From: Phycisphaerae bacterium | GTDB lineage: Bacteria > Planctomycetota > Phycisphaerae > SM23-33 | Direction: 5' to 3' | DNA length: 57,322 nucleotides | Assembly (NCBI GenBank): GCA_003551645.1 | Contig: PUND01000043.1 | Location: 1-57,322 of the forward strand | The notes under the pieces: generated by a model | What the model was told of the DNA's origin: nothing | What the model saw: the letters and a program-made list of their open reading frames with translations, nothing else | Database searches by the model: none | Part shown: positions 4,945-54,045 of the stretch, in pieces | Layout of the letters: every line of letters starts with the position of its first letter | Position numbering within the stretch: position 1 is the stretch's first letter | Translations under genes and position numbers: made by a program

Positions 4945-5556
4945 ATGTCAGAGCACACAGCCGATCAGCCCCGGCCGGACGATTCGCGGACCGGCGACGA
5001 CACCACTTCCGTGGCGGCCGAGACAACCGCCGCGGACTCAGCCGACGCCAAGCTCGTCCCGGTGGGCGAGTCCATCAAGTACCGCCGCCGCGCCCAGCAG
5101 GCCGAGGGCCGATGCCGGGAGCTGGAGCGGAAGCTCCAGGACCTTGAGTCGCAACTGACACGCGGTCGAGACGAGGTGGCCGCCGCCGAGGCCCGGCGCG
5201 ACGAGGCGGCCGCACACGCCACCCGGCTGGAGAACCGGCTGGGGGTCGAGCGCAAGCTTGCCGAGGCCGGGGCCGTGGATATCGAGGCGGCGTCGCTGCT
5301 GCTGTCGCGCCGAGCGGACCTCGACGAGCCGCTGGAAGACGAGCAACTCGACCGTCACGTCGAACAACTGCTGCTGGACAAGCCATTCCTGACGGCCTCC
5401 GCCGACCTGCCGGCTCAGACCGCATCGGCCCGGCCGAGTGAACACGCCACCGCCGGCGACCTGGCACGCGCCGCCAGGCGGGCCGTAAGCAGCGGCGACC
5501 GGCGGGACATCGCCGAGTACCTGCGACTGCGACGCACCGCGGAAGCCAACGACTAG
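4945..5556 (+). CDS. scaffold-like coiled-coil phage protein
   Basis: In-frame ATG at 4945 inside the longer ORF; charged coiled-coil (QQAEGRCRELERKLQDLESQLTRGRDEVAAAEARR) between portal and capsid. Confidence 0.6.
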   Translation: MSEHTADQPRPDDSRTGDDTTSVAAETTAADSADAKLVPVGESIKYRRRAQQAEGRCRELERKLQDLESQLTRGRDEVAAAEARRDEAAAHATRLENRLGVERKLAEAGAVDIEAASLLLSRRADLDEPLEDEQLDRHVEQLLLDKPFLTASADLPAQTASARPSEHATAGDLARAARRAVSSGDRRDIAEYLRLRRTAEAND

Positions 5557-5625: not shown

Positions 5626-6786
5626 ATGGCATTTACTGGAAAGGCAACCTACTCCGCCGGGGCCGACCTGCCGGAGATAGCCGAGGACGTAGCCGACATC
5701 GTCAGCATCGTCTCGCCCTATGAGACACCCCTGCTGGACCGGCTGGGCGACCCGACCCGGGCCGCGACCAGCACCTTCCACGAGTGGCTGGAAGATGAGC
5801 TTCTGCCCAACACCGACGCCACCGACGACGGCAACTGGACCGACCCCACGAACCAAAACACCTTCGGAGTCGCACACACCGACCGTTTCCGCGTGGGCGA
5901 CCAGATTCGCGCCGCCGGAAGCGATGAGCTGATGATGGTAACTGAGGTCGATACCGGCGCCGGGGAGATCACCGTCACCCGCGGCTACGGCGGCACGACA
6001 CCGGAGGACCTCTCCGACGGCCTGACGCTGCACATCCTCGGCAACGCCGCCCTCGAAGGCGACGACTCCCCTGCCGCCCGCTTCACCACCCGCACCCGAA
6101 AGGGCAACTGGACGCAGATATTCACAGCCGGCATCCGCATCAGCGGCTCGGAGCTTGCCGCCCGCAAGATCGCCGTCGCCGACGAGCTGGACTACCAGAA
6201 GCAGGAGCGGCTGCGCGAGCTTCTGCGCGACCTGGAGAACACGGTCGTCAACGGAACCGCCCCGACGGCCGATCAGCAGGGATCGGCAACCGTCCGCAGA
6301 ACCATGCGTGGCATCCTGCCGGCGCTTACCGGCAACATCTTTCTGCCCGGCGAGGACGGCTTCCCCGCCGAGGCCAACCTCACCGAGGAGCAGCTCAACC
6401 TCGCCCTGAGGCGGATATGGGAACAGTCCGCCAGCCGCATCGACACCATCGTCGTCAACGGCCACCAGAAGCGCCGCATCAACGGCTTTATCACCAGCAC
6501 CCGCGCCTACGGGCCTGAGGATGTGGCCTTCCGCGACCTGGTGAGTACCTACGAGAGCGACTTCGGCGTCTGCCGCGTGGTGCTGTGTCGGCACATGCCG
6601 GCCGATGCGGTCCTGCTGCTGGACAGCTCGCGCATCGATGTGCTGCCGCTGGCCGGACGCAGCTTCCACTACAAGCCGCTGGCGACCACCGGCGACTACG
6701 AGAGCGGCGAGGTCATCGGCGAATACACCGTCGAGCTTCGCAACGAGAACGCACACGGGGTCATCAAGTCGCTGTCCGCCGCGTAG
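5626..6786 (+). CDS. major capsid protein, SU10/DUF5309-like
   Basis: DIVSIVSPYETPLLDRLGDPTRAATSTFHEWLEDEL...FTAGIRISGSELAARKIAVADELDYQKQERLRELLRDLENTVVNG; RBS ggaga upstream. Confidence 0.82.
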   Translation: MAFTGKATYSAGADLPEIAEDVADIVSIVSPYETPLLDRLGDPTRAATSTFHEWLEDELLPNTDATDDGNWTDPTNQNTFGVAHTDRFRVGDQIRAAGSDELMMVTEVDTGAGEITVTRGYGGTTPEDLSDGLTLHILGNAALEGDDSPAARFTTRTRKGNWTQIFTAGIRISGSELAARKIAVADELDYQKQERLRELLRDLENTVVNGTAPTADQQGSATVRRTMRGILPALTGNIFLPGEDGFPAEANLTEEQLNLALRRIWEQSASRIDTIVVNGHQKRRINGFITSTRAYGPEDVAFRDLVSTYESDFGVCRVVLCRHMPADAVLLLDSSRIDVLPLAGRSFHYKPLATTGDYESGEVIGEYTVELRNENAHGVIKSLSAA

Positions 6787-6927: not shown

Positions 6928-7578
6928 ATGAGACGATTCTGCCAAGACCGAGACCTGCTGGCCGTCGAGCCGGTGATGTTCCTGGGCGGCGGATTTCCCG
7001 CCCGTGTGCCCGCACGCGGGGAAGACGCTGAGTTCAGCGGCACAACCTTCACCTCGGCCGCGAGCGACTTCCACGCCGCCGGTGTGGCCCCGGGCATGGT
7101 CCTGACCGTCTATGCCGCCACGCCGTCGGAGGGGCTGGCCCTGGAGATAATCTCGGTGGACTCGACCACCACGCTGACGGTTTCTGTTCTGCGGGCGTCC
7201 ATCGAGGATGAGCCGGTCGCTCCGCCCGCCGACGGTGAGAAATTCCACATCCGATCATACGACGTGCGGATATCCCGCGTATCGGAAGCACTCGCCGAGA
7301 CGCTGCGCCGGATGTCCGAGGCGGCAGGCATCTCGGCGGCCCACTTTTCGGACTCTTCGCAACTGACCGCCACGACGTGCTACGGCGTGCTGGCCGAGTG
7401 CTTCACCGCGCGGTCGGCCGGCGGGTCGGCCGACGACGCCAACTGGATAAAGGCCCGCCACTATCGCGAGCTGTTCCGCTCGTCGCGGCTGGGGCTGCGG
7501 CTGGCGGTGGACATCGACGGCGACTGCGTCGCCGAGCGTACCCGCACGCTCGGCAACATCCTGCTGAGGAGGACGTAG
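6928..7578 (+). CDS. phage head-tail connector-like protein
   Basis: Position right after the capsid gene, ~216 aa, co-oriented; no diagnostic motif. Confidence 0.45.
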   Translation: MRRFCQDRDLLAVEPVMFLGGGFPARVPARGEDAEFSGTTFTSAASDFHAAGVAPGMVLTVYAATPSEGLALEIISVDSTTTLTVSVLRASIEDEPVAPPADGEKFHIRSYDVRISRVSEALAETLRRMSEAAGISAAHFSDSSQLTATTCYGVLAECFTARSAGGSADDANWIKARHYRELFRSSRLGLRLAVDIDGDCVAERTRTLGNILLRRT

Positions 7579-7580
7579 CG

Positions 7581-8015
7581 GTGGCCGGCGTCGCGAAGAC
7601 CGTTCTTGACTCGATAGTGCAGTCCCTCCGTTCGGAGGCCGGTCCATCGGGACTGGCGGTTGTGATCGCGGGCGAGTCGGCCGATGAAACGGCCGTGCCG
7701 CGGGCGAACGTTCTGTACCGGGGCTGCGACGCCTTCGAGCCGGACGACTCGCCCGCCGGCGGATGGTTGCGGCTGCGTTATCGCGTCGAGGTTCGCACCC
7801 GCTGCGATGGTGCGGCTTCCGGCCTCGGCCGGGCGGCCGAGCTTGCGGAATCCGCCGTCGTCGCCCTGCTGGCCGACCCGTACCGGGGCGGCGTATGCGC
7901 GGACCTGCCGGTCGGCAGGGCCACGGAGATAGGGCGGGTGGAGGTGCTCACGCAGCTTCGCCGCCCGGAAGCCGGCGTGGCGCTTGAGGTCCGCTGTCAC
8001 GTGGAGGAAAGCTGA
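7581..8015 (+). CDS. phage structural protein, tail-completion/terminator-like
   Basis: GTG start 3 nt after the previous stop, 144 aa; position-based call. Confidence 0.4.
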   Translation: MAGVAKTVLDSIVQSLRSEAGPSGLAVVIAGESADETAVPRANVLYRGCDAFEPDDSPAGGWLRLRYRVEVRTRCDGAASGLGRAAELAESAVVALLADPYRGGVCADLPVGRATEIGRVEVLTQLRRPEAGVALEVRCHVEES

Positions 8016-8422
8016 TGGGTCGCTACACTCGCATCGGCTCCGTGGAGTTCGACTCGTCTCCGTTGCCGCTGCCGGTGTCTGTGCGGGTGTCGCGCCGGGC
8101 CGAACCGCTGCCGGCGTCCGGGGACAACCACGCATTCGCCACCAGCGTCGAAACCGCCACGCCCGTTTTCTCGGCGGAGGTTCGCATTCGTGACACCTCG
8201 GCCGCCGAGCAACTTGACCTCGGGCAAAGGGGCGACCTGGGCTTCACAGTCCGCGCGGCCGAGCAGGACAAGCCCCACAGGAGGGTCACGCTCAAAGGCG
8301 CCGTGCTGCTGGCGGTGGAGCTGGCATACGAGCAGACCGAGGCGGCGGACGCGACGCTGCGGTTCGTCGCCGAGGCCGAGACCGGCTCGCAGGAGCCGTT
8401 TAGCGCGGGAGACCAGCCATGA
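8015..8422 (+). CDS. phage structural protein (tail-tube-like by position)
   Basis: TGATG overlap with upstream gene. Confidence 0.4.
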   Translation: MGRYTRIGSVEFDSSPLPLPVSVRVSRRAEPLPASGDNHAFATSVETATPVFSAEVRIRDTSAAEQLDLGQRGDLGFTVRAAEQDKPHRRVTLKGAVLLAVELAYEQTEAADATLRFVAEAETGSQEPFSAGDQP

Positions 8423-8784
8423 GTTCGTTCGGCGGCAGTAACCTGTTCGGCTCCGGCCCGCACTCCATTCGTCCGTGTTCGTGGGGGCGGTCGCAACAGC
8501 GGCGCGGCTTCGACGCCCTGGACGGCGAGGTGGTGCTGGACGACGGGCTTCGCGGCCGAACCATCGAACAGACCGGCCGACTCCGGGCATCCACCGCATC
8601 GGCCCTGCAGACGCTGATTGAGGACATCGAGCAGCTCATAGACGGGCGGACGCATACGCTGCTGGACAATCACAGCCACGTTTACCCCAACGTGATGCTC
8701 CAGAGCTTCGAGCCGCGGACCCCCATCCAGAAGGGCCGGTCGTACTGGTGCGACTACACGGCCCGCTACCTGCAACTGCCATGA
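8419..8784 (+). CDS. phage structural protein
   Basis: 4-nt overlap with upstream gene, co-oriented. Confidence 0.4.
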   Translation: MSSFGGSNLFGSGPHSIRPCSWGRSQQRRGFDALDGEVVLDDGLRGRTIEQTGRLRASTASALQTLIEDIEQLIDGRTHTLLDNHSHVYPNVMLQSFEPRTPIQKGRSYWCDYTARYLQLP

Positions 8785-9500
8785 CCGGCCAATTCACAAC
8801 CGAAGGAATCGACGGGCTTTCCGCCCTGCCGCGGGCCGTGCCGCCGGGCTGGCGCGTGAGGTTCCGCTCGAAGCACGCGGGCATGGCGCATCAGCTCTAC
8901 GTCAACGGCCGGCTCGCCGACTGGACCGACACCACCGACCGGCGAAGCTTCACGCTGGACGACTACGGCCCGTGCGAGTTGACGGTCGCGGCCGTGGCCC
9001 CGCGCGAAAGGGCTACGGACTTCTCGCACCTCCTGCCGGATGAGGTCCGCCGTCCGGCGTGGGTCTTCGAGGCGGCTATCCCGCGTGGGACCGACCTGGG
9101 CCGGTCGGACCGCATCGAGGCGACGATCGTCGGCGAAGCCGGGCCGATCGCATCCTTCGAGGCCTGGCCGGAGCACATCCGCCGATGGGCCTGGGGTGAG
9201 GACCGCTTCGGCAAGGGCGGTTTCGGCTACGACGGCTCGCTCGCGCCCGGTGCCGGGTTGGGTGCGTTCGGGGCCGGGGCGTTCGGTATGGACGCGGATG
9301 TAATCCGACTGCGGATGCCCATCCCGGCGACGGGCGAGCACGAAATCACCATCCGCAGCGTAAGCGACAAAGGCCCCGCAGCCGAGTTGCCCCCGATTCA
9401 GTTCATCTCCGCACCGCCTCCGGCTGCGCCAGAGTCGATAGCCGTCGCCGCTTACGACAACCAGACCCAGACAGTAACCCTGCAAATCCAGAGAGGTTGA
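8781..9500 (+). CDS. phage structural protein with Gly-rich GEDRFGKGGFGYD...GLGAFGAGAFGMDAD segment
   Basis: ATGA overlap with upstream gene; start at 8781 preferred over 8748. Confidence 0.45.
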   Translation: MTGQFTTEGIDGLSALPRAVPPGWRVRFRSKHAGMAHQLYVNGRLADWTDTTDRRSFTLDDYGPCELTVAAVAPRERATDFSHLLPDEVRRPAWVFEAAIPRGTDLGRSDRIEATIVGEAGPIASFEAWPEHIRRWAWGEDRFGKGGFGYDGSLAPGAGLGAFGAGAFGMDADVIRLRMPIPATGEHEITIRSVSDKGPAAELPPIQFISAPPPAAPESIAVAAYDNQTQTVTLQIQRG

Positions 9501-9501
9501 C

Positions 9502-10323
9502 ATGACCGAAATGCACCCGCCCGACGCCACACTCAACGCCCTTTCCGGAACCGCCGACGACGAGCAGGAGGTGCCCTTCCCGACCATCGGCGAGTCGCCT
9601 TACTACACCAGCTTCTACAGGATGCTTCATCGCCTGCTCGACGTGGCCCGCCGCGCCGGCGACCTGCGCGTGTACAAGGACGGGGAGCTTACCTTCGGCA
9701 TCCGGTGCGGCCGCTTCTTCGACGGCGACGAGCTGCGAGAGTACCCCGGCTCATCCGGCAACGCGCTGGCAAACAACGCCGAGAACCACATCTATCTGGA
9801 CGCCGCTGGTGCGCTTCACGTCTCGACCGGCGGCTTCCCGCCTCCGGCGACGCCGCACATCCGCCTGGCGACCATCACCACCGCCGCGGGCGGCTATACG
9901 CACGCCGACATCGGCGACCGGCGCGGCCCGGCCATGTTCGCGCTGTCCAACGGGCTGTCGCCCTCTCGGCTGCAAGACCTGCTGCCGGGCATGGCAATCA
10001 CCGCCGGTGAGCAGACCGGCGATACGCGGACCGTCACCTGCCAAGTCACCGACGCGGCCGGAAACGACCTCGCCGAGCGGTTCCGCATGCGCCTGTGGGT
10101 GGCGACGGTCGAGTTCGGGCCGCCCGGCGCCGACGGCAACTCGGTGAGCGTTACCGGCGGCGAGTTGCTCCGGGAGATAACCGCCGAGGCGGATTATGAG
10201 CTTATCACCGCGCCGGACGGCTCGGCCGCCGTGGACCTGGCCGTCACGCCGCCTGCGAGCCGCTGGGTCTGCGCGGAAATCGACGGGCGCATCCACTGCT
10301 CCAACGAACTGACATACGCCTGA
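9502..10323 (+). CDS. phage tail/fibre-like protein
   Basis: Co-oriented, 1-nt gap from previous gene; beta-rich composition with ENHIYLDAAGALHVSTGGFP. Confidence 0.4.
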   Translation: MTEMHPPDATLNALSGTADDEQEVPFPTIGESPYYTSFYRMLHRLLDVARRAGDLRVYKDGELTFGIRCGRFFDGDELREYPGSSGNALANNAENHIYLDAAGALHVSTGGFPPPATPHIRLATITTAAGGYTHADIGDRRGPAMFALSNGLSPSRLQDLLPGMAITAGEQTGDTRTVTCQVTDAAGNDLAERFRMRLWVATVEFGPPGADGNSVSVTGGELLREITAEADYELITAPDGSAAVDLAVTPPASRWVCAEIDGRIHCSNELTYA

Positions 10324-10334
10324 GGCCACAAGCC

Positions 10335-12449
10335 ATGCCATTACACCACTACATCGACAACGAGGTCCCGGACTTCGCCGAGTGGGACACCGTCGTCGCT
10401 GACGGCGGCGCAACCGTCGTGCAGACGGCAGAGTCCGGCTTCCCGGAAAGAGGCAAGCTCGGACTGCGGATCGACTGTCAGATGGAACAGGCGTGGGTCG
10501 AGAAGCAGCTAGGCGGCGCCGGCGATCACCTGGCGATCGGCTTCTGGATGAGGATCGTCGAGCCGCCTGACTGGGCCTGGTGGATGACGAAGCTGGGCGT
10601 CTGCGAGGCCTGCGCGGAAGACGACGCCGGCATGCGACTGCACCTTCGGCAACACCCAAACGGCCTGTGCCTGTCGCTGCACCAGGCGACGGACGGTTCC
10701 CTGAACGTGATCAACGACGATCTGCTCCTTGATAGTCAGCGATGGCACTACCTGGTCGCCGTCTGTCACTGGGGTCAGAGCGAGTGTGAGGCCAAACTCT
10801 ACATCGACGGCTCACTCCGCGGGCATTCGGTCCTGGCCGACTGCGGCGCAGGCAGGCGTCCGGACCGGGTGCGTCTCGGCTGCACCGAGTCCGGCGGGGT
10901 GTGCCCGGTCGTGCTGGACTTCGACGAGATCAAGATCGCCGACGCCTACCCCGAACCGTTCCGGGCCGAACCGCAGACGGAGCACCCGGCGCCGGAGCGG
11001 ACCGTGGTGCTGGTCGCCGACACTGAATATGGCCGGGAGTTCGCCGACGGTTGCGTCGAGATGCTGGGCATTCCGCGTGGCAACCGGTGTGTGCTGTCCA
11101 ATGCCTCCACGGACGAGACGCTTCAGGACCACGCCGCCTTCGAGCAGCAGGTTGAAAACGACCTGCGGGCGTGGCTGGCGACCAACCCCACGGCCGCCGC
11201 CCGATGCAACTGCCTGCTGCTGGGCGGCGACCTGCCCGGGTACTTCATGCACGACGGGCTGCGGCACTCGGCCACCTCCCGACTGATGAATACGCACCAG
11301 CCGTTCTCGACCGGGTCGGACAATCCGTTGTACGCCCCCGGTGAGGTTACACGGCTGACCAAGGCGGCCCTGGACGGTTTGTATCTGGTGACGCGCATAG
11401 ACGCCCCGGACCCGCAGGACGCGAGGACGGTGATGTCGCGGTCGGTTTCCGTATCCGCAATGGAGTCGCTGCCGGCCGACAACCTGCTCTACTGCGACGA
11501 TGCGGCTTATCGCCCATCCCCGGCATGCGGGCGTCTGCGCATGCCGACGTCCGATATCTCGAAGCTGGATATGGCGGCGATGGTCTGGGGCCGGGTCGCC
11601 GACCCGCAGTTCGGCGACGGAGGTACCCGCGCCGTCTTCGCCGACACATCGGCCGGCTCGGCCGCCACGCTGAGGGACAAGAGCTTATCCTGCGGCCGGG
11701 CGCTGTTTGATGCCGGCTTCGCCGCCGCACTTGGTTGCAGTGATGAGCCGGACGACTTCGACGTCGAGAGTTTCTTCGAGATGCTCCGCATCGGCGGCAC
11801 GCTTGCCGAGGCGTTCGCCGTCGCCACGGCCCGGCTGGACTACACATCGGTCGCCTGCGGCGTTCCGACCATGACGGTCGCGACACCCCGAGCCGGCGTG
11901 AACATCTATCACGGCGTCGGAAGCGCCGACGCCATCGACTACTCCGCACCGATGGCGTATCTGCACGAGAACCAGCAGACCGTCGATGTGCCGCTGGAGC
12001 TTGCCGCCGGCCGGAGACACTACCTGGCCGCGCGGGCGGTCTCGTCGGCCAGCGTCGAGGAGAACAATACCCACATCATCACCTGCGCACGTGCCGACGC
12101 CCAGGGAGTGATGCTCGGCGAACCGCTGCCGACGCCGACCGATCTCGTAGTCGATGTCCTGTCGCCGGGCCGCGTGGCGATCGGCTTCGTATGCCGAGTC
12201 GAGCCGGGCCTCGCCCGACCGGAGGCGTTTGAGGTGCTCTCGGACAACGGAAGCGGGCAACTGGACGCCGACAACCCCGTCGCGAGCATCCCGGCGGCCG
12301 ACGACCGGGAAGTGTTCATGGCCCAGGCGACCGACCTGACCCTGCCGGCAAAGCTGGCCGTCCGCTGCCGCCGAGACGGGCACACCGGCGAGTTGAGCCA
12401 AACAGTGAACGCCGCCTGGCCGACGCCCGCGCCGCCGGCTGTGCTTTGA
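10335..12449 (+). CDS. LamG-like lectin domain fused to a TIGR03790-like domain, in the phage cassette
   Basis: N-term ConA/LamG-like (LAIGFWMRI...WHYLVAVCHWGQSECEAKLYIDGSLRG...VVLDFDEIKIADAYPEPF); middle VLVADTEYGREFADGCVEMLGIPRGNRCVL...LYLVTRIDAPDPQDARTVMSRS...LGCSDEPDDF...GGTLAEAFAVAT. Confidence 0.55.
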   Translation: MPLHHYIDNEVPDFAEWDTVVADGGATVVQTAESGFPERGKLGLRIDCQMEQAWVEKQLGGAGDHLAIGFWMRIVEPPDWAWWMTKLGVCEACAEDDAGMRLHLRQHPNGLCLSLHQATDGSLNVINDDLLLDSQRWHYLVAVCHWGQSECEAKLYIDGSLRGHSVLADCGAGRRPDRVRLGCTESGGVCPVVLDFDEIKIADAYPEPFRAEPQTEHPAPERTVVLVADTEYGREFADGCVEMLGIPRGNRCVLSNASTDETLQDHAAFEQQVENDLRAWLATNPTAAARCNCLLLGGDLPGYFMHDGLRHSATSRLMNTHQPFSTGSDNPLYAPGEVTRLTKAALDGLYLVTRIDAPDPQDARTVMSRSVSVSAMESLPADNLLYCDDAAYRPSPACGRLRMPTSDISKLDMAAMVWGRVADPQFGDGGTRAVFADTSAGSAATLRDKSLSCGRALFDAGFAAALGCSDEPDDFDVESFFEMLRIGGTLAEAFAVATARLDYTSVACGVPTMTVATPRAGVNIYHGVGSADAIDYSAPMAYLHENQQTVDVPLELAAGRRHYLAARAVSSASVEENNTHIITCARADAQGVMLGEPLPTPTDLVVDVLSPGRVAIGFVCRVEPGLARPEAFEVLSDNGSGQLDADNPVASIPAADDREVFMAQATDLTLPAKLAVRCRRDGHTGELSQTVNAAWPTPAPPAVL

Positions 12450-12644
12450 TGCCGACTCACAGGGCAAACATGCCTTTACGGATGCTAACTTGTTTTCGCT
12501 TCTCAAACGAGTCACAGCACAGAGCCGCGAAGAGACAGAGAGTTACATATTCCGTCTCATACATCTCTGTTCCTCTGTGTCGAAAGCACGAACGTCCACA
12601 ATGCACGAATCATCTCGTCTCTTACTGAGCACCTGTCAGGAACC

Positions 12645-14339
12645 ATGAACACGCTGAAGCTTTCAAAACGCACCGAATCGCCCGTGCTGCGATGCGCCGC
12701 TCCACTGGTCTTCGTGGACGGCCGGTTTCGTCCGGATTTGCGGGGCCGCTTGTGGGAGGTCCTGCCGGCGCCGCGTTTCGGGCGGGCGCGGCTCGAGGTC
12801 CGGGGCCGGGCAGTGCTTCCGCCGCCGCGGATCGGCTCACACGTGCTCCTGCTCGGGCCGGGCGCGGTCGGTCAGTTCCTCGGCGTGGTGGATTCCCGCA
12901 TCGACCGGCTGGGCGAACAGGCCGACCCGCCCGGAGTCGAGGTCCGCCATATCCTCGCTGAAAAGCTTTCCGACAGGGTCGCCGCCCGGCACCTGCTCAT
13001 CGGCGGGGAGCCGGTCGAAATACGAAGCGGCACTGTGGGCTTCAACACCGGCTGCGATTCGATGGCGACACCGAACGACCACACCCTCAACGGGCGGAAG
13101 ACGCCGTTGTTTTCGTCGGCCGCCGACGCCCGGCGGTGGAGCGTGGCCGATGCTCTTGCGTATCTGCTGGCGGCGTGCGTGCCGCCGGAGGTGGAGGTCC
13201 AGGATATCGACGAGCTTCGCGAGCTTGCCGGCGGAATCAACGCCGGCGAGTCCGACATCACCGGCCGGACGGTAGCCGAGGCGCTGGCGAACGTCGCCGC
13301 CGCCGCGGCGCTGGAACTGCGGGCCGCGCGGGCCGGTGAGGGGCTGGTGTTCTACCGCCCCGGCAGGCAGGGCCGGCTGCGGAGCGTCCGTCTTCAGCCG
13401 AGCGGGCAAAGGGTGCTGGCGTCGGGCAGCAATCTGTGGCGAGGCCGGCTTGAGTTTCACCGTCGGCCGGGCCGGCGCGGCGTGCTGGCTCTGGGGGCGC
13501 GCCGGCGGTACGAGGCCACATTCGAGCTTTCGCCCGGCTGGGACCCCGCGAAACAGACTCACCGCTGGCGAGACTTCGTTCGCGGCGAGGCCGCCGACTG
13601 GCCCGACGTTTCGCGGGTTTACCGCAAGTGGGTGCTCAACGAGCACGCTCGTTACAGCGGCGAGCCGTGGAACCTGCCGGTGCACGACTTTTCCGAGATA
13701 GACCCGTATGCGTTCACCGCCCTGTCCCCGCGACGGTTCCTGCCGTGCATCTCCACCGACGAGGCCGGGCAATCGCTGGGCATGGCGGTGGAGTTCCGCC
13801 GCGGCGGGGAAGACCAGTGGCGACGCTGGCCGGGACCGGTCTGGACGTGCGAGGACGAGTGCGCCGTGCTGCTCGGCGGCGACTCGCTGCCGGGCGACTT
13901 CTTCGCAGCGGCCGCTGCCGGCGAAGCGCAAGTGCGCATCACGGCGACCGTGCAGGCCGACGCCCGCCTGATAGCCGAGGTCCCAGGCGACCCCAATCTG
14001 CCGACCGAGACTGCGGACTTCTCCGACCGCGCCGCCTGGCAGCGGGTCTCGCCGCTGAGTGTCTTCTACGGCCGTGGAGACCTGGGCGTGCCCGACGAGC
14101 GCGACGACGCCGATATGCTCGCCGAGCTTGCCCGCCGCCACGCCGAAGGCGCTTGCGAGGCGGTCGAGGCGCATCTGACGCTGGGCTGGCCGGATGCGTC
14201 TTTCCACGTGGGCGACCGCGTGGAGCGGATCGACGGGCGGGCGATTGAGCTTGCCCCTCACGCCGACGCGGCGCCGCGGGTCCGCTCGGTCCGCCACGAC
14301 TTCGACCGATTGACAACCGAACTGACTGTCACTGGATGA
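12645..14339 (+). CDS. phage tail/baseplate hub-like protein
   Basis: 564 aa, co-oriented; overlaps the next gene's start. Confidence 0.45.
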   Translation: MNTLKLSKRTESPVLRCAAPLVFVDGRFRPDLRGRLWEVLPAPRFGRARLEVRGRAVLPPPRIGSHVLLLGPGAVGQFLGVVDSRIDRLGEQADPPGVEVRHILAEKLSDRVAARHLLIGGEPVEIRSGTVGFNTGCDSMATPNDHTLNGRKTPLFSSAADARRWSVADALAYLLAACVPPEVEVQDIDELRELAGGINAGESDITGRTVAEALANVAAAAALELRAARAGEGLVFYRPGRQGRLRSVRLQPSGQRVLASGSNLWRGRLEFHRRPGRRGVLALGARRRYEATFELSPGWDPAKQTHRWRDFVRGEAADWPDVSRVYRKWVLNEHARYSGEPWNLPVHDFSEIDPYAFTALSPRRFLPCISTDEAGQSLGMAVEFRRGGEDQWRRWPGPVWTCEDECAVLLGGDSLPGDFFAAAAAGEAQVRITATVQADARLIAEVPGDPNLPTETADFSDRAAWQRVSPLSVFYGRGDLGVPDERDDADMLAELARRHAEGACEAVEAHLTLGWPDASFHVGDRVERIDGRAIELAPHADAAPRVRSVRHDFDRLTTELTVTG

Positions 14340-14899
14340 CCATGAAGACCGACCGCGTTTATCACGATTCGTTCAAACACCTCTCCCAGGCCGGCGGCGG
14401 AACGGGCGTGCTGCTTGCGCGCATCGTCGCGGCCGAGACCGGCAACCGCTACTCGGCCGTCGCCGTGGAGTTCGACGGTGACGGTCTGACACAGCCGGTC
14501 GGGGATGAGGTTGTGGTAACCAACCTGGCCGAGGACCCATCCGCCGGCGGAAACCTGCCAGCCGGCACCGAGGCGCTGGCCGTGGACACCGAGGGCCGGT
14601 GGGTGGTGCACGTGCGCGCCTTTGGGACGGCCGTGTTCGCTGCCCGGGTGATAGCCCACGCCGGGACGGCCGGCCGCTACATCGTCCGCGAGCAGGCGCT
14701 GTCGCCGGAGGGCACCTTCGAGGACAAGCCCGGTGCCGACGACGTTACCGCGACGAACCTGGCGGAGCTTTCGCTGGGCGACGGGGCGGCCGTCGATGAT
14801 GACACCATCGTACTGGTGCACGCGGTGCCGGATACAGGCGAGCCGCCGACGCCGCGGCACGTGTTCGACCATCCCGCCTACGCCAAATACCTGGACTGA
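14336..14899 (+). CDS. phage structural protein
   Basis: ATG at 14336 overlaps upstream stop; position in cassette. Confidence 0.4.
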   Translation: MTMKTDRVYHDSFKHLSQAGGGTGVLLARIVAAETGNRYSAVAVEFDGDGLTQPVGDEVVVTNLAEDPSAGGNLPAGTEALAVDTEGRWVVHVRAFGTAVFAARVIAHAGTAGRYIVREQALSPEGTFEDKPGADDVTATNLAELSLGDGAAVDDDTIVLVHAVPDTGEPPTPRHVFDHPAYAKYLD

Positions 14900-14904
14900 A
14901 CGCG

Positions 14905-15945
14905 ATGAGCTACAACCCAACATGGCAGAACGCCGACCCGGCCGGACAGGTCGTCGCGGCCGAGCACTTCATCCGGCTCAGCGACGCCGCCGAGCTTGCC
15001 GACGCGGTCAACCGCCGCCGGCTGCTGACCTACCAGGCGGAGCAGGACTTCTCGTCGGACATCGCCGCCGGCGCGCATGTGAGAAACCGGGTAATCGACT
15101 CGGCCGAGGCCCCGCCTTACGACGCGTTCCGCAAGTCGCTCGCCGAGAAGATACTGCACCCGCCCGTTGGCACGCTCGGCGGACAGCCCGCCTCCCCGCT
15201 GGCTATGGACTGGCTCTGGCCGATAGCCGACGGCGATGAAGACAAACTCCTGGTCGCCGGCGACGCCGACGAAGGCCAGGTGGGGCTTTTCGAGAAGCTC
15301 AACGGAACCGACGACTGGACCGACGCGACGCTGACGCCGGGGCAGTCGCGCATACGCGCAGTACACATCAACGAACTGCGGCAGGCGGTGGAGTGGATCC
15401 GCCGCGGGCGCTGGGTCCTGCCTGTGTATCCGGAAGCGGGCCTGTTCTCGCCGATGCCGGATACGCCCTGGGGCGGCGGGTTCCTCGCCAACGATGGCAG
15501 CGAGGAGCTTCGGGTGGTGGGCTTTTCGATGTTGCGTACGCCCGAGACGCCGCCGCGCGGGCTGACCGACGTTACCGTCCGGCCGTCCACCCGCATCGAG
15601 CTTCTCGCCAGCGACGACTGCACGCTCCAGGTGCACCATTGCCTGCGGGAAATCGACTTCCAGACCAACCCGCCGACGTGGAACCAGTACGCTCCCGACG
15701 CCTCGGCCGCATGGTCGCAACCGGGCGGGCTGGGCGAAGGCGATTCGCTGCCGATCGGTTCGCTGACGCTAACCGCCGGCGAGCCGGGGCATATGTCCGG
15801 CCCGGTGGTCGCCGCGGCGCTTCAGGCGATGACAGACGGCGCCGAGCGGAACCTGCTTGTCCGCAGGGAAGACACCGGCCCGCAGACCGTTGAGATAACC
15901 GTAATGCTGGTCGTGGAGTTCGACCTTCTAACGCCGCCGAACTAG
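14905..15945 (+). CDS. phage fibre/appendage-like protein
   Basis: 346 aa, co-oriented, 5-nt gap. Confidence 0.4.
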   Translation: MSYNPTWQNADPAGQVVAAEHFIRLSDAAELADAVNRRRLLTYQAEQDFSSDIAAGAHVRNRVIDSAEAPPYDAFRKSLAEKILHPPVGTLGGQPASPLAMDWLWPIADGDEDKLLVAGDADEGQVGLFEKLNGTDDWTDATLTPGQSRIRAVHINELRQAVEWIRRGRWVLPVYPEAGLFSPMPDTPWGGGFLANDGSEELRVVGFSMLRTPETPPRGLTDVTVRPSTRIELLASDDCTLQVHHCLREIDFQTNPPTWNQYAPDASAAWSQPGGLGEGDSLPIGSLTLTAGEPGHMSGPVVAAALQAMTDGAERNLLVRREDTGPQTVEITVMLVVEFDLLTPPN

Positions 15946-15980
15946 AGAGGCAGAGTTGGTCGTTTCGAGCGTCCACTGTT

Positions 15981-16094
15981 CGACACAGAGGGACAGAGGA
16001 ACTGAGTTTTATTTCTCTGAATCTCTGCGCCTCTGTGTCGCATCGACGCTTGCACCCGCTTTGAATCCGCAATCCTAAATCCGCAATCCGCAAT
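15981..16094. repeat. host-type intergenic repeat: CGACACAGAG...CTCTGTGTCG inverted repeat plus (AATCCGCAAT)n-type tract
   Basis: CGACACAGAG 15981-15990 with CTCTGTGTCG 16031-16040; AATCCGCAATCCTAAATCCGCAATCCGCAAT 16064-16094 abuts the next ATG. Confidence 0.6.
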
Positions 16095-16373
16095 ATGAAC
16101 CTGATCTCCGTTCTATATGACCTGGCCGGCTTTGGGGCCGCGGGGCTTATGGGAGCCATGTGGCTGTGGGAGCGCCGCCTCAGCCGCCGGCGGGAAGAGC
16201 AACTCGACGACGCCCACGAGCGAATCCGCCGCGACGAACAGCGGCTGGACAAACTCACCGAGGTCGTCGAGCGGAACACCGCCGCCGTAGCCGGCTTCGC
16301 CGAGACGCAGCGACAGGTGCACGAGACGCTGAAAGACCTCAGCAGGGAGCTTCGACATGACCGGACGTATTAA
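16095..16373 (+). CDS. TM + coiled-coil phage protein (inner-membrane spanin-like or holin-associated)
   Basis: N-terminal TM then helix (LDDAHERIRRDEQRLDKLTEVVERNTAAVAGF); 17-nt overlap with lipoprotein gene. Confidence 0.5.
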   Translation: MNLISVLYDLAGFGAAGLMGAMWLWERRLSRRREEQLDDAHERIRRDEQRLDKLTEVVERNTAAVAGFAETQRQVHETLKDLSRELRHDRTY

Positions 16374-16857
16374 GCTGATTTGCCTCATCCCACCGGCGCT
16401 GCTTTGTGCCGGCTGTGCCGAGACGGCCGCGGTGAACCTGATCTCCGTAGCCCGCGAGGGCATCGCCGACGCCCGCGGCGCCCAGCAGGACCAGCACGAG
16501 GAACTGATGACCCGGCTCGCCGGGCAGAAGGAGTCGCTGGACGAGGCGTTCGACTCGGACGTCCGCCTGGTCGCGGCCGGCGGAATCACCGACGCCGACG
16601 GCGAGCCGGTGGAGCTGACGCCGGAGTGGGTCATCTCCGCCCGCGCCGGCTACGCCGCGGCCCGCGACGTCGTCGCCGCGGAAATGCTCTCCGCCGAGCT
16701 TGCCCACGCGGCGCGTCTGGACAACCTCGCCGCGGCCGACGAGGCCCTTGAGATGGCGACCGACCTGTTGCTCCGCCAGGCGGGGCTGACCGAGCCGGTC
16801 CGCGTCAAACTGCTGGATAAACACGGGAGATGGATTGATGACAGACAACAGCGTTGA
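16357..16857 (+). CDS. phage-cassette lipoprotein (outer-membrane spanin-like candidate)
   Basis: Lipobox LLCAGC after a hydrophobic signal; overlaps TM/coiled-coil gene in another frame. Confidence 0.5.
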   Translation: MTGRIKLICLIPPALLCAGCAETAAVNLISVAREGIADARGAQQDQHEELMTRLAGQKESLDEAFDSDVRLVAAGGITDADGEPVELTPEWVISARAGYAAARDVVAAEMLSAELAHAARLDNLAAADEALEMATDLLLRQAGLTEPVRVKLLDKHGRWIDDRQQR

Positions 16858-17095
16858 ACAGGCCGTTTCACAGGCGGTGGACCGCGCCTACGACCGCTGG
16901 GCCGCCGAACACCCATCTCTGGCGCGGGTGATAGACCGGCTGGCCGTCACAGAACGGACCAGCGAGTCGCTCCGTGATTCGGAGGCCTATCGCAAGGCCG
17001 TGGCGGACTACCACCGCGGCCGGAACGAACTGGAACTCATACACCGACTGACGGAGCTTGCCGCGCCGCTGGTGCGGAAGCTGCTTTCCGGCTGA
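16835..17095 (+). CDS. small hypothetical protein in phage cassette
   Basis: Overlaps upstream ORF, co-oriented. Confidence 0.4.
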   Translation: MMTDNSVEQAVSQAVDRAYDRWAAEHPSLARVIDRLAVTERTSESLRDSEAYRKAVADYHRGRNELELIHRLTELAAPLVRKLLSG

Positions 17096-17118
17096 CGGCC
17101 GGGGAAAGGAACGAAAAG

Positions 17119-17337
17119 ATGCGCGGATTTCTTGAACGGATATCGTCGCGGAAGTTTCTGACGGCCGTGGCAGTCCAGGCGGCGTCGGTGGCCGCTATCT
17201 TCCGCCCGGAACACGAGCAGACGCTGCACACCGCGGCGGTACGAATCGCGGCACTGGCGACGCTGCTGCTGGCGGCGATGGGCTACGGCAAGATCGAGTC
17301 CGCCGTGGACGCCGCCATGAAACAGGATGCTCAGTAG
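17119..17337 (+). CDS. holin-like small membrane protein
   Basis: 72 aa with two hydrophobic segments (FLTAVAVQAASVAAIF, ALATLLLAAMGYG) at cassette end. Confidence 0.5.
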   Translation: MRGFLERISSRKFLTAVAVQAASVAAIFRPEHEQTLHTAAVRIAALATLLLAAMGYGKIESAVDAAMKQDAQ

Positions 17338-33374: not shown

Positions 33375-34178
33375 CTAACGCCTGCCCGCCTCGAGCGGCT
33401 GGACGCGGAACACCGCCGGCCAGAGTCCCGTTATCCGCTCCCGGGGATATAGCTCCGAGGGGTAGCGGTCGTTCAGCGGCTGGAGGCGGACGGTGTCTTC
33501 GTCGTCCTGGTAGAAGCGTTTGAAGGTGGTCTCGGCGTCCTCGGCGAAGCGGATGAAGCAGTCGTCGCCGGACCTTGCCGGCGTATTGGGCGAGAAGATG
33601 ACGATATCGCCCTCGTGGTAGGACGGCTCCATAGAGTCGCCCACCACCCGTGCGGCGAAGGCCTGGGCGTCGTGGACGTCCGGACAGCGGATATACTCAT
33701 CCGCCACGCTAGGTGGATAGTCCAGGTCTGTGAAGTGTCGCGGGTAGCCGGCCGTTACCTTGTTGATAATCGGCACCGACGCCCCGGCCGTCAGAGTGCG
33801 CACGTTGCCCGCGTTCTCCGGCTCGATCTCGGCCGCCAGCGCATCGAGGTCAACTCCGCCGCCGGGCTTGCGCGGGCCCTCGGATATAAGACCCCTCAGC
33901 ACGCTGCGGAGCTTCTGTATCTGGGCGTCCTTGCGCTCGTACTCGTCGCGAACGTCGGCCGGCGTGCGCGCAAGGTGGGCAAGCTTGGTAAGCTCGCCCG
34001 CGCCAAAGCCGAGCACACGTTCCAAGGCCCGCAGCACGCCGTCGGTCGGTGGGTTCTTGGCCCGGCCGGTCTCGATGGTCGAAAGGTACGGCTTGGAAAT
34101 GGCCGCCTGTTCGGAGACCTGATCCTGCGTCAGGCCCAGCTCCTCCCGACGACGCCTTATAATCGCACCTATGTTCAT
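33375..34178 (-). CDS. XRE-HTH / S24 LexA-like repressor (phage cI-type)
   Basis: IIRRRREELGLTQDQVSEQAAISKPYLSTIETGRAKNP; S24 part VTAGYPRHF..., VVGDSMEPSYHEGDIVIF..., TTFKRFY. Confidence 0.88.
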   Translation of the reverse strand: MNIGAIIRRRREELGLTQDQVSEQAAISKPYLSTIETGRAKNPPTDGVLRALERVLGFGAGELTKLAHLARTPADVRDEYERKDAQIQKLRSVLRGLISEGPRKPGGGVDLDALAAEIEPENAGNVRTLTAGASVPIINKVTAGYPRHFTDLDYPPSVADEYIRCPDVHDAQAFAARVVGDSMEPSYHEGDIVIFSPNTPARSGDDCFIRFAEDAETTFKRFYQDDEDTVRLQPLNDRYPSELYPRERITGLWPAVFRVQPLEAGRR

Positions 34179-34432: not shown

Positions 34433-34486
34433 TTGACTGCGCCTGTTGTCTTGTTATAATATACAAAGGCCTAGTAGCATAACTAG
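34433..34486 (+). promoter_or_regulatory. near-consensus sigma70 promoter (TTGACT-16-TATAAT) and downstream operator-like IR
   Basis: TTGACT 34433-34438, TATAAT 34455-34460; CTAGT(34471-34475)/ACTAG(34482-34486) near expected +1. Confidence 0.6.
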
Positions 34487-34658: not shown

Positions 34659-35093
34659 ATGCCGCTGTCTTTGCGTGAGAACATCTGCCGGCACCAGGAA
34701 TTACCAGACGACCAGGAGGTGATTCGAGGTCGTATCGAGCTTTTGGACAGTCCCGACAGGGATTTGCTCGAGGCGATCCTCATACAGGGCCAATCGGCCG
34801 CATCGCTGGCCAGGATCATGGGCGTCCGTCCGCGGACGCTCCGCGAGCGGGTCCGCCGCCTCACCCACCGGCTGAGCAGCCGACGGTTCCTCGATGCGGC
34901 AAGGTCGCTGAGTTACCTGTCCGCGGAGGATGCGGAGCTGGCCCGCATGCACTTCTGCCAGGGCCTCAGCCAGAGGGAACTCGCCCGGCGGCTGGGCACG
35001 AGCACGCATGCCCTTCGCCGTCGGCTGGACCGCATCGATGCCGAGATAACCGCCATCCGCCGGCTCCACCGCAGCCGGTCGCCGCGCCACTGA
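34659..35093 (+). CDS. two-HTH (sigma region 4-like) protein; small-terminase or regulator candidate
   Basis: SAASLARIMGVRPRTLRERVRRL and SQRELARRLGTSTHALRRRLDRI; upstream of ABC-GNAT and TerL. Confidence 0.55.
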   Translation: MPLSLRENICRHQELPDDQEVIRGRIELLDSPDRDLLEAILIQGQSAASLARIMGVRPRTLRERVRRLTHRLSSRRFLDAARSLSYLSAEDAELARMHFCQGLSQRELARRLGTSTHALRRRLDRIDAEITAIRRLHRSRSPRH

Positions 35094-35146: not shown

Positions 35147-36385
35147 ATGCCCGCCACAAGACCCGCCGGCTGTTTCCGTCGGCGCACCACCATCAGCATT
35201 TCGTTCAGCCGCCCCGCCGCCCGAGGCCGGGACGCGTCGAGAGTCGCCCGCCTGTTCGGCATCTCCGCCGGCCGGGACCGGATATGGGACGAACTGACCG
35301 TTGAACTCGCCGCCGGCGAGATCGTCGCCGTCGTCGCTCCCAGTGGGGCCGGCAAGAGCGTGCTGCTGAGGCGCATCGCCCGCCGGGTCCCCGGCACCGT
35401 GGTACTGGATGCTGTCGGGCCGGCGATCACCGGTCTGCCGGCGATCGAATACGTCGGCGAGGGCCCTTTCCGGAGGCGGCTTGATCTTCTCAGCCGCTGC
35501 GGGCTTGCCGACGCGGCCGCGATTGTACGCCCGGCTGCCCGGCTCTCCGGCGGACAGCAGTGGCGGCTGGCCCTTGCCGCGGCTCTGAACGCCGCAACCC
35601 GAACGGCCGAACCCCGGCTGGTGATAGCCGACGAGTTCGGCTCCGGCCTGGACGCCATCACCGCGACGGTCCTGGCCCGGCAGGTTCGCTCGCTGATACG
35701 GCCACGGCGGCCGGATGCGCCGGCGATGCTGCTGGCGACGCCGCGGGCGGAGCTGCTGCCCTGGCTCCGGCCGGACCGCACCATCGTCAAGACGCCCGGA
35801 GAGCCGGCTGGCGTGTTGACGCGGTGGCGCAGGCCCACGGGGCGGCGCCGGCCTCCCTGGGGCGGATTCCGGCTTATGCCCGGCCGGATAGCCGACTACG
35901 ACGCCCTTTCCAGCTGGCATTACCTCACCTGCCGGCCCGCCGCGCATAAGAGGGTCTGGGTCGTTCGCACATCGCGCCGCCCGCCGGGGGCGCCCGCGAC
36001 AGCCGGCGTACTGGTGGTCTCACCGCCGTCGATGCGCTGCCGCGGACGCAACCAGGCGACACGGCGGCGGTACCTCGGTCCGGACCACCGCCGGTCGCTT
36101 GCGCTTCTGAACGCCGAAATCGAGTGCATATCGCGTGTGGTGGTGCACCCGATGTATCGCGGCTGCGGGCTGGCGACCGCACTGGTCCGTCACTCGGTGG
36201 CCACGGCCGAAACGCCGCTTGTCGAGGCCCTGGCGGTTATGGGCGGCGTGCATCCGCTCTTTGAGGCCGCGGGGATGAGCCGCATCGGCCGCTTCGCCGG
36301 CACGCGAGAGTACCACTACTTCCTGGCCCGCCGTCGGCCGGCGGTTCCGTCGGCCAGGCAAACGGAGATCCTGCTGAATGACTGA
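35147..36385 (+). CDS. ABC-type ATPase fused to GNAT acetyltransferase domain (COG2401-like)
   Basis: Walker A VAPSGAGKSVLLRR, signature RLSGGQQWRLALAAAL, Walker B PRLVIADEFGSGLDA; C-term GNAT ISRVVVHPMYRGCGLATALVRHSV. Confidence 0.8.
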   Translation: MPATRPAGCFRRRTTISISFSRPAARGRDASRVARLFGISAGRDRIWDELTVELAAGEIVAVVAPSGAGKSVLLRRIARRVPGTVVLDAVGPAITGLPAIEYVGEGPFRRRLDLLSRCGLADAAAIVRPAARLSGGQQWRLALAAALNAATRTAEPRLVIADEFGSGLDAITATVLARQVRSLIRPRRPDAPAMLLATPRAELLPWLRPDRTIVKTPGEPAGVLTRWRRPTGRRRPPWGGFRLMPGRIADYDALSSWHYLTCRPAAHKRVWVVRTSRRPPGAPATAGVLVVSPPSMRCRGRNQATRRRYLGPDHRRSLALLNAEIECISRVVVHPMYRGCGLATALVRHSVATAETPLVEALAVMGGVHPLFEAAGMSRIGRFAGTREYHYFLARRRPAVPSARQTEILLND

Positions 36386-37898
36386 CACACCCAACGCCCG
36401 CCTTCGGCGAAGAAAACCCACAAGTCGCAAGACCGCCGGCCCAGCCGAGCCGAAAGACCGGCCGGCCGCGCCGCCGAAGCCGCGGACACCGCATCAGCTC
36501 GCCCGACTGGTCCGCGACGCCTTCGGGCTGAACGTCCCGCCCGGTCCGTGCTGCGACCATCACAACTCGCCGCTGGATTACCTGGTGGCGAGCTTCTTCG
36601 GCGAGCGCGATTTGCTGGTCTGGGCCAACCGCGGCGGCGGCAAGACCATGATGGCGGCCGTGGCGACGCTGCTGGACGCGATATATCACGGGCCGGTCCA
36701 CATCCGCGTTATCGGCGGCAGCTTCGATCAGTCCGACCGGCTGGCCGAGCACATCCGCGAACTGCTGGAGCACAGACCAGACCTGCTCGCCAAACCGCCC
36801 ACCCGCGACCGCGTGCGGCTTGTCGGCGGTTCGGAAATCCGCATGCTGCCGCAGTCGGAACGGGCGGTCCGCGGCCAGCACGTCCAGAAGATACGCTGCG
36901 ACGAGGTGGAGCTTTTCGACGAGCGCGTCTGGCGGGCCGTCCAGTTCGCCACGCGGTCCACCGCGTCGGCTCGCGGGTCCATCGAGGTGCTCTCAACGCT
37001 CCACCGCAGCGGCGGGCTGATGCATCGGCTGGTAAGCGACGCCGAGCGGCTGGCCTCCCCCCTGCCGGCCGACGGCGCCGGCGGCAAGCCCGGCTATGCA
37101 CTGATACACTGGTGCCTGTGGGACGTTATCGAGCCGTGCCCCGCCTGGCGCGACTGCAACGGCTGTCCGCTGGCCGACGACTGCCGGGGCGTCGCCCGCA
37201 ACGGCAAGGGGTTCTTCCGAATCGACGACGCCATCGCCATAAAGGCCCGCTCCAGCCGCGCCGCATGGGACGCCGAGATGCTCTGCAAGGGGCCGCACCG
37301 CGACTGGCTGGTGTTCCCGGAGTTCGACGTGGCCCGCCACATCCGCCATGCGGAATACTGCCCGGACTGGCCGATGTACCGGGCGATCGACTTCGGCTAC
37401 CGCAGCCCGCTGGTGTGTTTGTGGATACAGGTAACGCCCGCCGGCACTGTGCACGTGATAGACGAGTACGTCCGCCGCCGCCTGCCCCTGACAGCACACG
37501 CCGAGGAGATACTCCGCCGCGACCCTCCGGCGGCGAAGACGGCCATGACCTACGTGGACCCGGCCGGCCGGCAGAAAGAGGCCACCAGCGGCGCCGCCTG
37601 CACCGAGCTTCTCCGGGCCGCGGGCATCCCCAGCACCTGCCGGGCCAGCACCATCGCGGAGGGGCTGGAGCTTATCCGCTCCGCACTGGCCCCGGCGTGC
37701 GGAGAGCCGTCGCTGGTTATCGACCGGCGGTGCGGGCGGCTTATCGACGCCTTCCACAGCTACCACTACCCGCCCGGCGGCGACGCCCGGTCCGAACAGC
37801 CCGCCAAGGACGGCCCGGACCACCTCATCGACGCGCTGCGGTATTTCTTCGTCAACCGGATGCGGCCGAAAGTTGCCGTCCGCCGGGGCAGGTATTAG
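36378..37898 (+). CDS. phage terminase large subunit
   Basis: Walker A VWANRGGGKTMM, Walker B IRCDEVELF, nuclease AIDFGYRSP; Cys cluster CPAWRDCNGCPLADDC; starts inside the ABC-GNAT 3' end. Confidence 0.85.
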   Translation: MTDTPNARLRRRKPTSRKTAGPAEPKDRPAAPPKPRTPHQLARLVRDAFGLNVPPGPCCDHHNSPLDYLVASFFGERDLLVWANRGGGKTMMAAVATLLDAIYHGPVHIRVIGGSFDQSDRLAEHIRELLEHRPDLLAKPPTRDRVRLVGGSEIRMLPQSERAVRGQHVQKIRCDEVELFDERVWRAVQFATRSTASARGSIEVLSTLHRSGGLMHRLVSDAERLASPLPADGAGGKPGYALIHWCLWDVIEPCPAWRDCNGCPLADDCRGVARNGKGFFRIDDAIAIKARSSRAAWDAEMLCKGPHRDWLVFPEFDVARHIRHAEYCPDWPMYRAIDFGYRSPLVCLWIQVTPAGTVHVIDEYVRRRLPLTAHAEEILRRDPPAAKTAMTYVDPAGRQKEATSGAACTELLRAAGIPSTCRASTIAEGLELIRSALAPACGEPSLVIDRRCGRLIDAFHSYHYPPGGDARSEQPAKDGPDHLIDALRYFFVNRMRPKVAVRRGRY

Positions 37899-52606: not shown

Positions 52607-53734
52607 TCAAGAGGCCCTGCCTACCAGGGCCTCGGTTGTGTTGGTTTCCGCCGTCTCACCGAACGGCACAGCTTCCATGAACGCCTGCGATTCTTCCGGG
52701 CTGAGGTGGTAGTATCGTTGACGGACGCTGCCGTCGGCGTGGTTGAGCCAGATGTCCACCGCCCGTTCGGGGACACCGCTGTTGACGGTGAAGCTTTTGA
52801 AAAAATGCCGCAGATCGTGCAGCGTGAAGCCCGTTATACCCGCCCGCTCCGCGGCCGCCTTGAAGTACTCGTTGAGACGTTTGGCGTTGATGGGCCTGCC
52901 GCCTTCGGGGTATTTCCGCGAAGGACGGGCGGTGAAAAGCAGCTCGTGATCCTTGTCCTCCCGCCTCGCTTCCTGAAGCACGGCCAGGAGGCGGGAGTGG
53001 ATGGGCAGCTTGTACTGCTGCCGCTTCTTGACGTCGCGGACGGTCAGCCAGCCGCCTTCAAGGTCAACATCGCGACGCTCGAGAACCTGCAGCGAGCTGA
53101 CCCGCATGCCCGTAAACGCCAGTGTCGCGAGCATCCTGAACTGCCGCTCGCTGCACTGCCGCAGGATGGCGTTGACCTGTTCCAGCGACAGTGCCGGCCT
53201 GCTGATCAGCCTTGGTTTGTTCAGCCGGTAGTCGGCGACCGGGTTCGTCGCCAACAACCCACGACGCTTCGCCCATTTGAATAGCTGCTTTATCCCCACG
53301 CTTTCGTGATAGACGGTCGCCGGAGCACAGTCCCGGCTCCGCTCGGCGCGATACTGATCAAGCAACGAGACACCGACGGCGTCAAGGCGTCGAACCCGAC
53401 GCGACTCGGCGAATTCGACAAACCGCTCCAGCTCGCCCCTGTAGCGAGTGACCGTCCTGTCCGCCCTGTCCTCGGTCCGGAGGAACTCGAGGTACCTGTC
53501 AACTCCCTCGCGGAGTCTCACACGCTTCGGCGCCTGATAGGTACCGCCGGCAAGCTCTGCGGCAAGCCGAGTCGCACGCTCTGTGGCCACCTTCTTATTC
53601 GAGGTGCCCAAGCTCTTTCGCCTGTGCGAGTCGCTGTGCTGAAACTCCGCCGTCCATGTGCCCTTCTTGCCACGTCGATAAATTTTCACTCGGTCGCCGA
53701 TGGAGACCCTATGTTCGTCATCTGTGTCATTCAT
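52607..53734 (-). CDS. tyrosine recombinase/integrase
   Basis: LAFTGMRVSSLQVL (Arg), HDLRHFFKSF (HxxR), WLNHADGSVRQRYYH (Tyr); next to tRNA-Ser. Confidence 0.9.
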   Translation of the reverse strand: MNDTDDEHRVSIGDRVKIYRRGKKGTWTAEFQHSDSHRRKSLGTSNKKVATERATRLAAELAGGTYQAPKRVRLREGVDRYLEFLRTEDRADRTVTRYRGELERFVEFAESRRVRRLDAVGVSLLDQYRAERSRDCAPATVYHESVGIKQLFKWAKRRGLLATNPVADYRLNKPRLISRPALSLEQVNAILRQCSERQFRMLATLAFTGMRVSSLQVLERRDVDLEGGWLTVRDVKKRQQYKLPIHSRLLAVLQEARREDKDHELLFTARPSRKYPEGGRPINAKRLNEYFKAAAERAGITGFTLHDLRHFFKSFTVNSGVPERAVDIWLNHADGSVRQRYYHLSPEESQAFMEAVPFGETAETNTTEALVGRAS

Positions 53735-54020: not shown

Positions 54021-54045
54021 AAAAGAGAGGCCACGCGCCTGGTAT

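Follow-up and report, generated by a model that had tools for sequence, protein, structure and literature searches.

What an ABC-ATPase/GNAT fusion protein does at the head of a large terminase (TerL) gene is the question raised by a 57,322-nucleotide contig of a Phycisphaerae bacterium (PUND01000043.1; this whole stretch of DNA is referred to below as the window). An earlier note, made from the letters of the sequence, had described nucleotide-binding and acetyltransferase motifs in the fusion and an 8-nt overlap with the TerL start, and it had suggested a role in packaging, in DNA or protein acylation, or in marking packaged DNA, with base modification as a speculation drawn from the Mom protein of phage Mu. 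We could place each of the motifs: the ABC domain (approximately residues 37 to 215) carries a Walker A motif (APSGAGKS, 64 to 71), a signature (LSGGQ, 133 to 137), a Walker B motif (DE, 162 and 163), and a D-loop (LD, 168 and 169), and the GNAT domain (approximately residues 241 to 400) carries motif A (RGCGLA, 338 to 343). The overlap is likewise confirmed at positions 36378 to 36385. In Pfam searches, the fusion matches ABC_tran (3.8e-9), and the GNAT models are marginal (Acetyltransf_7, 9e-4, under its cut-off). An AlphaFold2 model shows two folded domains (mean pLDDT, 80; 87.5 for the GNAT part modeled alone). By domain content, the protein resembles COG2401, in which an ABC-type ATPase and an acetyltransferase domain also share one chain. 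The GNAT catalytic residues, the loss of which the earlier note had considered, form an invariant active-site pattern in 38 sequences from the class; 11 GNAT residues are invariant (H258, Y259, R301, N322, R330, P335, R338, G341, E360, M365, and G376), and R338 and G341 among them belong to the cofactor loop. The ABC motifs are likewise invariant in the relatives from the class. A deviation is seen in the ABC switch (H-loop), where the His found in most relatives is replaced by Arg (R200), which is invariant within the alignment of the window's family. The features of the window are collected in Table 1.

Table 1. Features of the window, with positions counted from its first nucleotide
Feature	Position	Strand	Basis or remark
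Portal protein, SPP1 gp6-like	3335..4933	+	PF05133, 2e-11; phrog_104, 2.5e-19
Scaffold-like coiled-coil protein	4945..5556	+	Between portal and capsid; function assigned by position; synteny kept
SU10-type HK97-fold major capsid protein	5626..6786	+	PF17236, 9e-85
Head-tail connector and tail genes	6928..15945	+	phrog_4204, 0.003; Laminin_G_3, 6e-5; syntenic in relatives
Tail terminator-like gene	7581-8015	+	Within tail genes
Lectin-like gene	10335-12449	+	Within tail genes
Small spanin/holin-like ORFs	16095..17337	+	Weak spanin/bacteriocin PHROG matches, best 1.6e-5; syntenic
LexA/CI-type HTH and S24 peptidase repressor	33375..34178	-	PF00717, 3e-21
Predicted sigma-70-type promoter, TTGACT-16 nt-TATAAT	34433..34460	+	Consensus; would drive the HTH-ABC-GNAT-TerL operon
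Double helix-turn-helix protein, sigma-70 region 4-like	34659..35093	+	HTH and sigma region 4 models; first gene of the operon
ABC-ATPase/GNAT fusion	35147..36385	+	412 aa; ORF, motifs, AlphaFold2 model, invariant residues in relatives
Large terminase (TerL)	36378..37898	+	506 aa; PHROG and Pfam matches, relatives in the class

The TerL assignment rests on matches to the PHROG terminase large subunit (2.7e-17) and, slightly under the cut-off, to Terminase_6C (1.7e-4). To evaluate its linkage to the fusion, we surveyed 60 genomes of the class Phycisphaerae, in which gene absences were called from tblastn or HMM searches, a simple gene caller having missed some genes in low-GC loci. In all 34 genomes in which one contig carries both, ABC-GNAT and TerL lie within about 4 kb of each other, and they are on the same strand in 33 of these, the exception (G010) being at a contig end. 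In families of the TerL lineage outside the window's, where readable, ABC and GNAT are separate genes, and in two genomes (G040 and G049) GNAT overlaps TerL by 4 nt. Since different Phycisphaerae families retain the pair and its GNAT residues are invariant, we do not regard the observation as due to chance. The linkage extends to viruses: among the 80 best viral loci, TerL was detected in 58 and lies within 3.5 kb in 57. Where the two domains are split, TerL is downstream within 3.5 kb in every locus in which it was detected (45/45), and where they are fused, TerL directly precedes them in 12 of 13 loci (-78 to +463 nt); the linkage thus outlasts both reversal of the gene order and fusion or fission. 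These counts bear out the packaging role proposed in the earlier note, in the sense of a packaging-linked partner of TerL, and they also answer its concern that homologs might lack a terminase association elsewhere. We therefore consider the link of ABC-GNAT to packaging to be well supported.

The nearest described counterparts are gene pairs of large siphophages (SSU5, Cyrano, Nickievirus, and Rhizobium phages), labeled "MK0520" and of the COG2401 type (PHROGs 293, 886, and 11143), which share the motifs of the window's fusion and lie upstream of TerL and portal genes on the same strand. The order in annotated phages is ParB-like, ParB-like, ABC, and GNAT, followed by TerL and portal; TerL itself could be read in the Rhizobium and Pseudomonas phages that we examined, as well as in viral contigs, and the Cyrano record stops before it. 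The siphophage pair differs from the window's protein in comprising two genes, in a C-terminal extension of the GNAT, and in the presence of ParB-like genes, whereas the window has a fusion without ParB. Of the 52 split-type viral loci, 49 have a ParB-like gene no more than 3 kb upstream of ABC, and 8 loci of the class have one near the pair, placed between GNAT and TerL in G045, G047, G056, and G058; the ParB-like genes of G025 and G042 are unnamed by Pfam and were matched by a phage ParB-like profile. This pattern is most simply read as loss of the ParB-like gene and fusion of ABC to GNAT in the window's family. A role as an ABC transporter subunit is rejected because neither the window nor the phage loci that were read have a permease gene adjoining the pair and because its neighbors are constantly genes for DNA packaging or other DNA functions (HTH, ParB-like, and TerL). 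The PADLOC matches (mad3 and mad8) proved to be generic ABC matches. The profile phrog_886 (L133, 6600-7490) is labeled "ABC transporter ATP-binding subunit" and is in fact the GNAT protein, the ATPase being phrog_293.

Several loci show other arrangements. Two near-complete relatives, G016 (L346) and G019 (L016), keep ABC-GNAT, and no TerL was detected in either; the G019 copy is still close to an aminotransferase IV-like gene, of the kind that follows TerL in the window. The protein may have a role apart from TerL in these genomes, or the loci may be decaying remnants. A divergent ABC-GNAT in G039 (L056, 2740-9912) has no TerL; its neighbors are genes for a D12-type adenine methylase and GmrSD-HNH and a fragment of an EcoRI-type methylase, and the locus is possibly a restriction or modification island. 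Together, these three genomes warn that the function of ABC-GNAT may not depend on packaging. In G025 (L062), G042 (L060), G051 (L163), and G033 (L070), ABC-GNAT belongs to a second, divergent lineage that is accompanied by a ParB-like gene, and the clusters of G025 and G042 continue with genes for TerL, portal-like proteins, and capsids of other types (Gp13-like and Phage_capsid_3). In G004 (L172, 6375-9083), ABC-GNAT and TerL occupy one open frame; a genuine triple fusion was not adopted, a lost stop or an assembly error being as likely, and the former is possible because a start for TerL and a sequence resembling a ribosome site are still present. Farther afield, 119 Acinetobacter plasmid records, mostly of about 90 to 155 kb among those listed, encode a GNAT relative (approximately 27% identity) and are perhaps phage-plasmids.

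The operon that ends in TerL begins with the double-HTH gene, which occupies the same position in relatives and is a candidate small terminase or activator. In G046 (L058, 8748-9128), a further HTH-like ORF of 126 aa between GNAT and TerL overlaps the TerL start and is likewise a candidate small terminase. Divergent from the operon is the gene for the LexA/CI-type repressor, which has a predicted autocleavage site (TAG, cleaved at Ala-Gly) with the Ser of GDSM and the Lys of FKRF as the catalytic pair; the site and the pair are kept in nearly all relatives. This conservation of autocleavage residues, as in LexA and CI, suggests that the operon is probably induced by DNA damage under SOS control. 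The predicted promoter scores above the 95% level of shuffled sequences here and in many, though not all, relatives. A search for an operator palindrome common to the terminase operon and the virion cluster found none; inspection by eye shows a dyad in the promoter spacer of several relatives.

The window also holds a cluster of virion genes (portal, SU10-type capsid, and tail) at 3335-17337, separated from the terminase operon by about 16 kb of host genes, including those for a P-type ATPase, FabZ, and NikR. The scaffold-like protein in this cluster has no significant match to a phage family, and the small ORFs that close it may serve in lysis. Relatives of the capsid protein occur in 31 of the 60 genomes (56 to 79% identity, no internal stops), those of the portal occur in 30, and those of the terminase occur in 42 at an E value of 1e-8, of which about 30 are of the same lineage. 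Thus, the virion and terminase loci are each present in roughly half of the genomes, nearly always as single copies. They also occur together: 27 genomes have both the capsid and this TerL lineage, 4 have the capsid alone, 3 have TerL alone, and 26 have neither (Fisher p, 2e-9). The virion cluster is syntenic across many genera and in several adjoins the same lyase (purB-like) gene, and both loci are often at conserved chromosomal sites. In G046 and G055, they form one cluster; in other relatives, they are on different contigs or, where the distance could be measured, 60 kb to 1 Mb apart. We note that genes for a UvrC-like protein and FabZ, which in the window lie to the left of the terminase module, directly adjoin the portal gene in G014 (L146, 720-2989), an arrangement hinting that the two loci were once neighbors. 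The pairwise distances of the capsid correlate with those of TerL or GNAT (0.88 to 0.94), and host families are recovered in the capsid, portal, and TerL trees. The capsid tree contradicts 3 of 19 strong RpoB clades, the portal tree 3 of 16, the TerL tree 6 of 22, and the GNAT tree 7 of 22, with the conflicts of the last two stemming partly from the inclusion of a second, divergent lineage. dN/dS values are about 0.02 to 0.18 for the capsid protein, TerL, and GNAT in within-genus pairs and reach 0.57 between more distant genera, where the values are affected by saturation.

These observations bear on whether the loci are simply ordinary prophage remnants of a phage lineage that infects the class, with no domestication. 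All of the genes are phage derived, the presence of the loci is patchy, and the conflicts of about a quarter to a third of the strong RpoB clades with the TerL and GNAT trees would fit such an origin. We nevertheless consider it very unlikely, given that the copies are intact and nearly always single, that the capsid retains its degree of identity across families, that the genes are under purifying selection with the same flanking host genes in several genera, and that two separate loci have correlated distances. Moreover, no integrase or replication genes were found among the matches in either the virion cluster or the terminase locus. A tyrosine integrase (PF00589) with small HTH/excisionase-like ORFs does occur at 52607-54555 of the window, and it is probably part of another mobile element that has no relation to either locus. 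Our scans of viral contigs, which used single proteins and thus had limited reach, recovered no close relative of TerL and no capsid above 36% identity; the named close relatives are metagenome-assembled genomes of Phycisphaerae and Planctomycetales.

Gene transfer agents (GTAs) have been defined as tailed particles made of caudoviricete-derived proteins whose genome is endogenized, often in several loci, inherited mostly vertically with host codiversification, and that package mostly random host DNA rather than their whole own genome and deliver it to other cells (PMC9662315). In the Phycisphaerae element, the portal, SU10-type capsid, TerL, and tail terminator-like proteins are caudoviricete derived by similarity; the virion cluster and TerL module are separate in the window and most relatives; and vertical inheritance is indicated by trees that recover host families, with some strong conflicts, and by conserved flanks. 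The element may act as a GTA. The known GTAs RcGTA, BaGTA, and BhGTA, which are classed as viriforms, similarly combine caudoviricete-derived head, portal, terminase, and tail genes, more than one endogenized locus, broad codiversification with the host, and purifying selection (PMC9662315). The Phycisphaerae element differs from them in the host phylum, in the SU10-type capsid, and in having ABC-GNAT and a LexA-type repressor in the terminase operon; the likeness is drawn feature by feature. We conclude that ABC-GNAT probably serves TerL as its dedicated enzymatic partner in packaging, within a GTA-like element that comprises two loci and has been domesticated and passed on vertically. The packaging reading of the earlier note thus stands as regards the partnership with TerL, and it had missed the virion cluster, the LexA-type repressor, the vertical inheritance, and the ParB-like partner.

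We then considered what the GNAT part might act on. Its top Foldseek matches are NAT10 and TmcA, with modest E values (1e-5), and a Mom structure (8bv8) ranks 39th in the PDB, with a Mom being 6th among viral models. Escherichia coli TmcA, as a single sequence, is colinear with the GNAT profile over 134 columns (p, 1.6e-4), including the HY and SRxxVxP motifs, and shuffled TmcA scores far below it; this match is no better than that of RimI, which has a p of 1.5e-4 over 55 columns of the core alone. The predicted fold is marginally closest to the nucleobase acetyltransferases NAT10 and TmcA. These enzymes also unite an ATPase and a GNAT in one protein, whereas their substrate is RNA and their ATPase is of another, helicase-like kind. 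Phage Mu Mom and Mom-like proteins share with the fusion the GNAT fold, a conserved His-Tyr early in the domain, and an Arg of the central strand. They differ in lacking a significant profile match, an ABC ATPase, and, in the Mom-like loci read, an adjoining TerL, and their SFAD motif is absent from the fusion. The window's protein has no Mom PHROG match, profile-profile comparison with the Mom family (phrog_1384) gave a probability of 2.9% (E, 0.016), and single Mom sequences reached a p of 0.0017 at best with any of three profiles; membership in the Mom family is therefore unsupported. Mom-like genes near a ParB-like gene, in only two of the nine phages fetched, are a weak lead for a role in DNA modification. 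Such a role for ABC-GNAT is possible, and a base amine as the GNAT substrate, proposed by analogy with TmcA and NAT10, is a tentative assignment to which we give somewhat less than an even chance. The recurrent ParB-like, HTH, and TerL neighbors favor a DNA-bound ABC-GNAT complex.

Two other functions were weighed against this. The GNAT might switch on packaging or late expression by acetylating a protein, be it one of the host or TerL, the portal, the scaffold, or the repressor, with the ABC part as a regulatory or assembly ATPase. RimI, a protein N-acetyltransferase, matching the profile as well as TmcA does, the overlap with the TerL start suggesting a fixed ratio to TerL, and the fact that proteins or small molecules are the substrates of many bacterial GNATs all speak for this; yet the DNA-directed neighborhood better suits a DNA-bound complex and the nearest folds are nucleobase acetyltransferases, so we judge protein acetylation to be unlikely. 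Alternatively, the ABC part could act mechanically, clamping the DNA or loading it for TerL, with the GNAT fold as a binding module that performs no acyl transfer, as the invariance of the ABC motifs, the occurrence of ABC and GNAT as separate genes, and a ParB-like partner that could load ABC on DNA would permit. Class and phage sequences, however, conserve both the residues of the GNAT pocket and the RxxGxG/A cofactor loop, and a mere scaffold would need neither; with the H-loop His lost in the window's family, hydrolysis may also be the weaker function. We regard a purely mechanical role as quite unlikely. ABC-GNAT is most likely an ATP-driven, DNA-bound acyltransferase that would license or mark DNA for packaging.

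We accordingly envisage, as a working model, that the LexA-type repressor would hold the HTH-ABC-GNAT-TerL operon off until DNA damage cleaves it, upon which the operon and the distant virion cluster would be expressed, and particles made from both loci would be filled with DNA by TerL. As an ATP-driven dimer, the ABC part would attach to DNA, together with a ParB-like clamp where this gene is retained, and deliver the GNAT to its substrate, for which DNA is the likeliest candidate and a packaging protein a less likely one; the GNAT might then acylate a base amine, much as the ATPase-GNAT enzymes TmcA and NAT10 act on RNA, before the DNA is handed over to TerL. The wider generalization that a complex of a ParB-like clamp, ABC, and GNAT chemically marks or licenses DNA at its uptake by TerL in many large phages and in the Phycisphaerae GTA lineage is speculative and on balance doubtful.

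Our literature search, which covered open-license papers, found no report of a GTA-like element in this phylum and none of a function for the ABC/GNAT gene pair. If the proposed explanation is true, a GTA-like lineage would be added in a phylum for which no report was found, and it would offer a concrete route of gene exchange in Phycisphaerae. A gene pair labeled "ABC transporter" in phage records would become a candidate component of DNA packaging and, if the marking reading also holds, the bacterial DNA exported by the Phycisphaerae GTA lineage would carry a mark.
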